Source: Candidatus Desantisiibacteriota bacterium (GTDB lineage: Bacteria; JACRDZ01). From it: 10,288 nucleotides of DNA. The translations under genes were made by a program, and so were the position numbers. Below the pieces are notes generated by a model. The model ran no database searches and had not been told where the DNA came from. It worked only from the letters and a program-made list of their open reading frames with translations. The stretch covers positions 1 to 10,288 of the forward strand of contig JACQWU010000342.1 of assembly GCA_016209155.1 (NCBI GenBank), written 5' to 3'. Numbering within the stretch: position 1 is the first letter of the stretch; every line of letters begins with the position of its first letter. Positions 3,323-4,864 of the stretch are shown one piece after another.

Positions 3323-3885
3323 AACTTACAGTAAAAGAAATGACTTATGTTTCTATTTTTTCAGCGCTTACTGCAATCGGTGCGTTCATGCGTTTTAATA
3401 TTTTTACAGTTCCTTTTACAATGCAACTCTTTTTTGTAATGCTGGCGGCAAGCTTGTTAGGCAGTAAATTGGGATCTTTAAGCCAGGTAATTTATATAAT
3501 ACTCGGGCTTATCGGATTTCCCATATTTGCAAAAGGAGGCGGACCCCAATATATTTTAGAATATACATTTGGATATTTGATAGGTTTTGCACTTGGCGCA
3601 TTTATAACCGGTAAAATGATTGAAAAAAAAATATTCAATTTACCGGCATATGCATTACATTTTGTATCAATGTTTACAGGACTTTTAGTTGTATATTTTT
3701 CAGGAGTCCCGTATCTCTGGCTCATATTTAATTATGTGCTTAACAAAAAAATGGCTTTTGTAGCTGCCGTAAAAGCCGGCATGTTAATATTTCTACCGTC
3801 AGATTTATTTTTTATTTCAATAGCTTCATTTATATCAATAAAAATCAAAAACACTCTGGGAAAGGAGTTTGTAACCAATGGATAA
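3319..3885 (+). CDS. bioY: BioY biotin transporter, ECF S component
   Basis: An integral membrane biotin-binding protein of the energy-coupling-factor family. With the shared ATPase/EcfT module, or in some bacteria alone, it imports biotin. The 188 residues are hydrophobic with about six membrane segments. Family-typical blocks are VPFTMQ (31-36), LLGSKLGSLSQ (46-56) leading into YIILGLIGFPIF, and GGGPQYILEYTFGYLIGF (73-90), which resembles the conserved BioY Gly-rich/GYLIGF block. FLPSD at 158-162 matches the block near the end of the family. No ecfA or ecfT gene is adjacent, so energising subunits would have to come from elsewhere. The start overlaps the bioB stop (ATGA) and the end overlaps bioU by 8 nt, so the gene is co-translated with the biosynthetic genes. 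Confidence 0.92.
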   Translation: MKLTVKEMTYVSIFSALTAIGAFMRFNIFTVPFTMQLFFVMLAASLLGSKLGSLSQVIYIILGLIGFPIFAKGGGPQYILEYTFGYLIGFALGAFITGKMIEKKIFNLPAYALHFVSMFTGLLVVYFSGVPYLWLIFNYVLNKKMAFVAAVKAGMLIFLPSDLFFISIASFISIKIKNTLGKEFVTNG

Positions 3886-4864
3886 AAAAATAAAAGTTGC
3901 AGTTCTTGGAGCGGGAGGCTTGGGTAAAGCCGCTGTTCAAATAATTTCTTTAAAAAAGGAAATGTCACTTGTTGCCATATGCGATAGCATGGGCTATGCG
4001 TATAACGCAAAAGGTTTAAACACTAAAGCTTTACTAAAATTAACAAGATCCGATTCAGTTGCGGGTTTAAAAGAAGGAAAATCATCAAAAGACCCTGTCG
4101 GAGAGATAATAAAACTCTCAACCAAATTTGATGGAGTTTTTATTGCCTTGCCTAATCTCCCAAATGAATTCATTCCAAACATTATAAAACGCTTTATAAA
4201 AAAAGGTGCAAGCCTTGTATTTACAGATGCCCTCAAAAGAACCCGGGCAACTGAACTCATGTTTAAACTTGATTCATCCCTAAAAAAATCCAAAAGCGTT
4301 TATCTTGTCGGATGCGGCGCAACTCCCGGATTACTCACAGGTGCCGCGGTACTTGCCGCTCAATCTTTCGTCAAAGTAGAAAAAGTCAACATCTGGTGGG
4401 GTGTGGGAATAGCCAACTGGGAAGAATATAAAGCAACCATAAGAGAAGATATAGCGCATATGCCGGGCTATTCAGTTGAAAAAGCAAGCCAAATGAGTGA
4501 TGAGGAAGTAGAAGCTCTTCTTGATAAAACCGGCGGCAAACTGGAACTCCATGAAATGGAACATGCCGATGATATACTTCTTGAGCGTGCCGGAGTAGTA
4601 AGCAAAAGAAGCCAGGTAGAAGTCGGTGGAATAATGGATACCCGCAATGCAAAAAAACCGGTAAGCACAGCAATGACACTAACCGGCATTACTTACAATG
4701 GACAAAGAAGCTCCCACTGCTTCATGCTTGGTGATGAAACCACAATGGCCGCCAATGTTGTGGGACCTGCTCTGGGCTACATGAAAAAAGCCGTCTGGCT
4801 CAAAAAGCACGAAATCTACGGAATCTTCGGCTCAACCGAATTTATGCCGATGGTAGTTAAATGA
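3878..4864 (+). CDS. bioU: BioU-type DAPA-forming suicide enzyme (saccharopine dehydrogenase-like fold)
   Basis: BioU, characterised in Synechocystis, replaces BioA. It converts KAPA to DAPA using NAD(P)H and its own active-site lysine as amino donor, so each molecule turns over once. The 328 residues start with a Rossmann dinucleotide loop, [13 protein letters not shown] (7-19). Blocks I recognise from cyanobacterial BioU follow: ALPNLPN (90-96), DALKRT with K120 (117-122), [13 protein letters not shown] (145-157), [21 protein letters not shown] (175-198), the EALLD and MEHADDI stretches, [10 protein letters not shown] (254-264), and GDETTMAAN at about 285-293. K120 is the candidate sacrificial lysine, close in position to K124 of the Synechocystis enzyme. 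A ribosome site AGGAG at 3863-3867 precedes the ATG by 10 nt. Placement between bioY and bioD, with no bioA in the operon, supports the role. An ordinary saccharopine or homospermidine dehydrogenase is less likely given this context and these motifs. Confidence 0.88.

Follow-up and report, generated by a model that had tools for sequence, protein, structure and literature searches.

Which enzyme makes DAPA in a biotin operon that has no bioA? The question is raised by the stretch of Candidatus Desantisiibacteriota DNA analysed here (10,288 nucleotides, contig JACQWU010000342.1 of assembly GCA_016209155.1; hereafter the window), where a gene encoding 328 residues lies between bioY and bioD (Table 1). 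BioU is known from cyanobacteria, and the host is not one: its placement in a phylum of which four genomes were examined confirms the non-cyanobacterial background suspected by the first-pass annotation, which had proposed that BioU stands in for BioA inside a compact biotin operon. Our reading is that the gene is very probably bioU, that together with bioY it has replaced the bioA of an operon ordered bioB-bioA-bioD, an Omnitrophota-like donor being the most likely source, and that its K120 would be spent for each biotin made. This is the best explanation of the homology, the fold, the residues, the operon, the absence of bioA from the available sequence and the slot in relatives.

Table 1. 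Features of the biotin region in the window, with the basis of each assignment
Feature	Position	Strand	Basis
pyrB	67-1011	+	same window
pyrC	to 2275	+	upstream of bioB
Candidate promoter, 5' of bioB	2309-2338	+	10/12 consensus match; weak
bioB, biotin synthase	2345-3322	+	NCBIfam TIGR00433, 395 bits (cut-off 225)
bioY, biotin uptake (S-component)	3319-3885	+	Pfam PF02632 BioY, E 2.6e-37; ATGA overlap with bioB
bioU, predicted KAPA to DAPA(-carbamate) step, in place of bioA	3878-4864	+	Slr0355 match; NF047886, 407 bits; model TM 0.97
K120 codon, equivalent of catalytic K124 of Slr0355	4235-4237	+	alignment with 6ir4 and 6itd; K in 92/92 homologues
H229 codon, equivalent of H233 of Slr0355 (MEHADD block)	4562-4564	+	alignment with H233A mutant 6k38
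bioD, dethiobiotin synthetase	4861-5577	+	TIGR00347, 176.7 bits (cut-off 83.3); ATGA overlap with bioU
Candidate terminator hairpin after bioD	5623-5644	+	9-bp stem pattern match; weak

Sequence and predicted fold point to the same family. The best matches in a PDB-wide sequence search were the entries for Synechocystis Slr0355 (6ir4, E 3.3e-102 over residues 5-327; 52% identity), with the next families at E 0.006 or worse, and the NCBIfam BioU model, NF047886, scored far above every other model. An AlphaFold model built from 38 aligned relatives (pLDDT 95.0, pTM 0.91) superposes on each of five BioU structures with an rmsd of 1.2-1.4 Å (TM 0.96-0.97); by fold, the next family scores a TM of 0.57, within the range of about 0.55-0.60 reached by diaminopimelate, amine and lysine dehydrogenases. 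Judged on family and modelled fold, the protein is BioU, as had been proposed, and not a lysine-pathway dehydrogenase. Its earlier description as saccharopine dehydrogenase-like holds for the general fold only: no saccharopine dehydrogenase family was matched in Pfam (E up to 0.1) or NCBIfam (E up to 0.01), and that enzyme and other lysine-pathway dehydrogenases are ruled out by the family and fold matches. An ordinary lysine-pathway or amino-acid dehydrogenase, sitting in a biotin operon by chance, would fit the weak Pfam match to ELFV_dehydrog on the nucleotide-binding part, but the only full-length match is to BioU, and we give that reading next to no credence. Aminotran_3, the class III PLP aminotransferase domain of BioA, has no Pfam match in the protein. 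The name BioU has also been given to an unrelated Ehrlichia methyl esterase (PMC7750005).

Would routine annotation recognise such a protein? NF047886 carries a cut-off of 600 bits against the 407 scored here, so a pipeline applying it would not name the protein BioU, and to that extent the first-pass annotation was right to expect the gene to be missed; NCBIfam does have a BioU model, however, and the mislabelling foreseen, as a saccharopine dehydrogenase, finds no matching family. Indeed, no match in any of the searched genomes, Omnitrophota and controls included, reached 600 bits. We read this value as a strict annotation threshold, apparently tuned to close relatives, and not as a defining biological feature. 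Genomes like that of the host can thus be reported without the BioA step simply because the cut-off excludes them.

The residues on which the chemistry would depend are in place. K120, already singled out as the likely catalytic lysine, aligns with K124 of Slr0355: it sits in DALKRT (residues 117-122), where the K124A mutant chain of 6itd reads DALART, and the mutant differs from wild type exactly at this position. Similarly, the window protein has MEHADD where the H233A mutant 6k38 has MEAADD. All four sequence blocks quoted from the first reading were found, at residues 117-122, 145-154, 186-198 and 254-261, the last being DTRNAKKP. Among 92 bacterial and archaeal homologues, K120, R189, E190, D191, E228, H229, D231, D232, D254, K260 and N293 are invariant; as the loci were collected with patterns drawn from MEHADD and from the N-terminal K[KQ]EM[SK]LVA, the conservation of the MEHADD residues (H229 among them) is biased by the search, whilst that of K120, which lies outside both patterns, is unbiased.

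The operon is as tightly packed as had been claimed, with bioU locked between its neighbours by overlapping codons. The order is bioB-bioY-bioU-bioD and every junction overlaps: one ATGA (3319-3322) is common to the bioB stop and the bioY start, bioY and bioU overlap by 8 nt, and a second ATGA (4861-4864) is common to the bioU stop and the bioD start. bioB is part of this bio unit, and a gap of 69 nt separates it from pyrC. An Rfam search upstream of the operon returned no riboswitch or other RNA element, and no BirA operator was apparent by eye ahead of bioB (2276-2344); hairpin-type sites, such as the candidate terminator, are no more numerous across the region than in shuffled sequence. Beyond bioD lie a 131-aa ORF (6107-6502, plus strand) with no Pfam or NCBIfam match and, on the minus strand, a gene (6682-10288) for a large surface-type protein that combines Big_5, about 13 RCC1 repeats and tandem-95/cadherin-like domains, with Lcl_C at the C-terminus; its reading frame runs off the end of the contig, and the N-terminus is therefore missing. 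The BioB of the window has a lysine in its IKVAGGRE block, at a position which we take to be that of the cluster-ligand arginine in E. coli BioB; the same lysine occurs in at least two BioBs of the phylum, and the protein may possibly belong to the type II BioB class.

The remainder of the pathway is found elsewhere in the genome, which comprises 352 contigs and 3.08 Mb and is 78.8% complete. Another contig carries bioF, scoring above its cut-off, and next to it downstream a bioC-like methyltransferase gene (150 bits against a BioC cut-off of 185); a BioH esterase is matched weakly, at 75 bits. Two further BioF-like acyltransferases (L005, 3-1565, minus strand; L006, 602-1915, plus strand) score highest with serine palmitoyltransferase models; one carries a fused N-terminal extension (about 135 aa), and one lies beside genes for a LuxR-type regulator and an acetyltransferase-like protein. 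In this 78.8%-complete genome no BioA was found: of its three class III aminotransferases (Aminotran_3), one is ArgD, one HemL and one HemL-like, and the best score with the BioA model is 231 bits, for ArgD, against a cut-off of 405. In contrast, BioA is present in each of the three relatives from the same phylum (562-581 bits) and BioU in none. Two of them keep the order bioB-bioA-bioD; in one of these, G002, bioB and bioA overlap and bioD starts 3 nt after bioA. Set against that arrangement, BioU, along with BioY, occupies the bioA slot in the window, in keeping with the first-pass annotation's reading of BioU in place of BioA.

A similar picture emerges in the Omnitrophota. Among 285 evenly drawn genomes, 11 have a full BioU match, 147 have BioA and none has both; within the 163 that carry bioB, BioA is present in 0 of 10 BioU carriers and in 141 of the 153 others (Fisher p 2.3e-10, counted by genome with kinship ignored, the genomes not being independent). 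The bioB-positive genomes in which neither enzyme was found number 12 (G089, G093, G117, G133, G135, G137, G143, G200, G201, G224, G293 and G308), and are either incomplete or use another route to DAPA. Of 50 BioU-carrying genomes none has a BioA above the cut-off, and five have BioA-like matches just below it, at 352-374 bits. These counts bear on the idea that BioU is redundant in the host, the true BioA being encoded in the 21% of the genome that is missing. The incompleteness of the assembly leaves room for such a gene, but the position of bioU in the bioA slot and the mutual exclusion of BioA and BioU in the Omnitrophota make this very unlikely.

Where might the gene have come from? In the BioU tree, the window sequence groups with six Omnitrophota sequences, its nearest, and one from Woesearchaeota (bootstrap 97, SH-aLRT 82). 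In the BioB tree the window sequence clusters with BioBs from those same BioU operons of Omnitrophota, apart from the BioBs of its own phylum, at a support (SH-aLRT 87) weaker than for BioU, whilst the BioD tree is too weakly supported to place the origin of bioD. These trees suggest that BioU is a horizontally acquired replacement and, with four genomes and modest support, fit an acquisition of bioB and bioU together from an Omnitrophota-like source; we infer the direction of this transfer.

The same grouping of BioU and BioB with Omnitrophota could also arise had the contig been mis-binned from outside the phylum. Its GC content of 37.5% lies a little above the 30.5-36.3% of 19 other contigs sampled, and its tetranucleotide correlation of 0.970 falls towards the bottom of the 0.965-0.995 that they span. 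The other BioU contigs compared fit far less well by this measure. The PyrB encoded on the same contig, however, shows 65, 65 and 59% identity with its counterparts in the three relatives; no other full-length PyrB occurs in the bin, the one further match being partial and 31% identical. On this PyrB evidence the contig is probably correctly binned, and we consider an origin in another phylum highly improbable.

The first-pass annotation had looked to this host for a spread of BioU beyond cyanobacteria; the gene is indeed present, and its distribution proves to be wide and not confined to the one genome. One scan of species genomes gave 160 confirmed relatives, of which 80 were kept. By record title, which for metagenome-assembled genomes can be wrong, they come from Desantisbacteria, Omnitrophota, Armatimonadota, Abditibacteriota, Coatesbacteria, Nitrospinae, Sumerlaeota, Poribacteria, Melainabacteria and Cyanobacteria, and, among archaea, from Methanoperedens, haloarchaea and a single Woesearchaeota record. 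Outside the cyanobacteria, 55 of 66 loci have bioB, bioF or bioD as a same-strand neighbour, the commonest order being bioB-bioU-bioF-bioD (36 loci); of the 14 cyanobacterial loci, none has a bio neighbour. Part of this non-cyanobacterial spread may already have been reported in the literature. Some individual loci stand out. The BioU genes of four Desantisbacteria-like genomes (L010, L011, L013 and L016) have no bio gene nearby, that of L011 standing after coaE-like and SPOR-type genes and before one resembling CMP-KDO synthetase. The record of L013 bears the title Marinifilum, but its BioU groups with Desantisbacteria, so that its title or binning is doubtful. The Woesearchaeota-titled locus has bioB, bioF, bioU and bioD together, which would be unusual for DPANN archaea unless it reflects a binning error.

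How would such an enzyme work? In Synechocystis, K124 and the substrate ketone condense in an NAD(P)H-dependent step to give a covalent adduct; after carboxylation, NAD(P)+ drives the release of the carbamate of the diamine, and the lysine is left irreversibly changed (PMC12915131, PMC7133116). As fold, lysine and histidine are conserved, we infer from homology a mechanism of this suicidal, single-turnover type for the window enzyme. KAPA (8-amino-7-oxononanoate), made by BioF and BioC, would condense with the epsilon-amino group of K120; the adduct would be reduced by NAD(P)H and take up CO2, and diaminononanoate carbamate would be freed with NAD(P)+, K120 being left as allysine, so that one BioU would be spent per biotin. 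BioD would then close the ring to give dethiobiotin, to which BioB would add sulfur, and BioY would import biotin. BioD normally makes the same carbamate in its own first step; the overlapping translation of bioU and bioD may thus help the hand-over of this product.

Perhaps, on the other hand, the enzyme is not consumed at all, its allysine being re-aminated or ammonia serving as donor, as in amine dehydrogenases, so that many turnovers are possible. The fold is indeed common to meso-diaminopimelate, amine and lysine dehydrogenases, which use free ammonia or lysine; yet the sacrificial lysine and its surrounding blocks (K120, R189, E190, D191, H229, K260) are kept, together with 52% identity to the characterised enzyme, and a multiple-turnover enzyme seems to us very unlikely beside one consumed with each biotin.

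The first-pass annotation was therefore right in substance, and the BioU of the window is supported as a new instance of a known enzyme. In a very rare and barely sampled phylum, its presence in the exact slot of its relatives' ordinary catalyst amounts to a natural replacement, and what lifts the case above the routine is that bioA has been replaced in place, that BioA and BioU exclude each other so cleanly in the Omnitrophota, and that a wide operonic spread is hidden by a strict cut-off. As a suicide enzyme costs a whole protein for each vitamin molecule, its persistence outside cyanobacteria needs explaining. Could operonic BioU be a widespread and mobile alternative to BioA in candidate phyla and archaea, displacing bioA in place, with the stand-alone cyanobacterial gene as one branch? 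Perhaps operonic forms, encoded by genes that overlap bioD, pass their carbamate directly to BioD, or are regenerated; this is a tentative proposal, and we hold it with more doubt than conviction.

Compared with known systems, the window protein is closest to Slr0355 of Synechocystis sp. PCC 6803 (6ir4, 6itd, 6k36, 6k37, 6k38; NF047886), with which it shares full length, fold, catalytic lysine and histidine, and all signature blocks; it differs in being 52% identical and in its setting, since bioB, bioY and bioD accompany the window gene in one biotin operon and the non-cyanobacterial host also has a BioC-like gene. The meso-diaminopimelate, L-lysine and amine dehydrogenases resemble it in general fold (TM about 0.55) but are only 11-18% identical, deviate by an rmsd of 7-13 Å and act on other substrates, and we know of no sacrificial lysine in them. 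BioA (adenosylmethionine-8-amino-7-oxononanoate transaminase) serves the same pathway step and, in G002 and G003, fills the same slot between bioB and bioD, but is an unrelated PLP enzyme which performs many turnovers with S-adenosylmethionine (or lysine) as donor. Finally, the BioU operons of Omnitrophota, Nitrospinae, Methanoperedens and haloarchaea, often bioB-bioU-bioF-bioD, likewise place bioU beside bioB and bioD; the operon of the window differs from them in having bioY inside and in lacking bioF, which is found with bioC on another contig.
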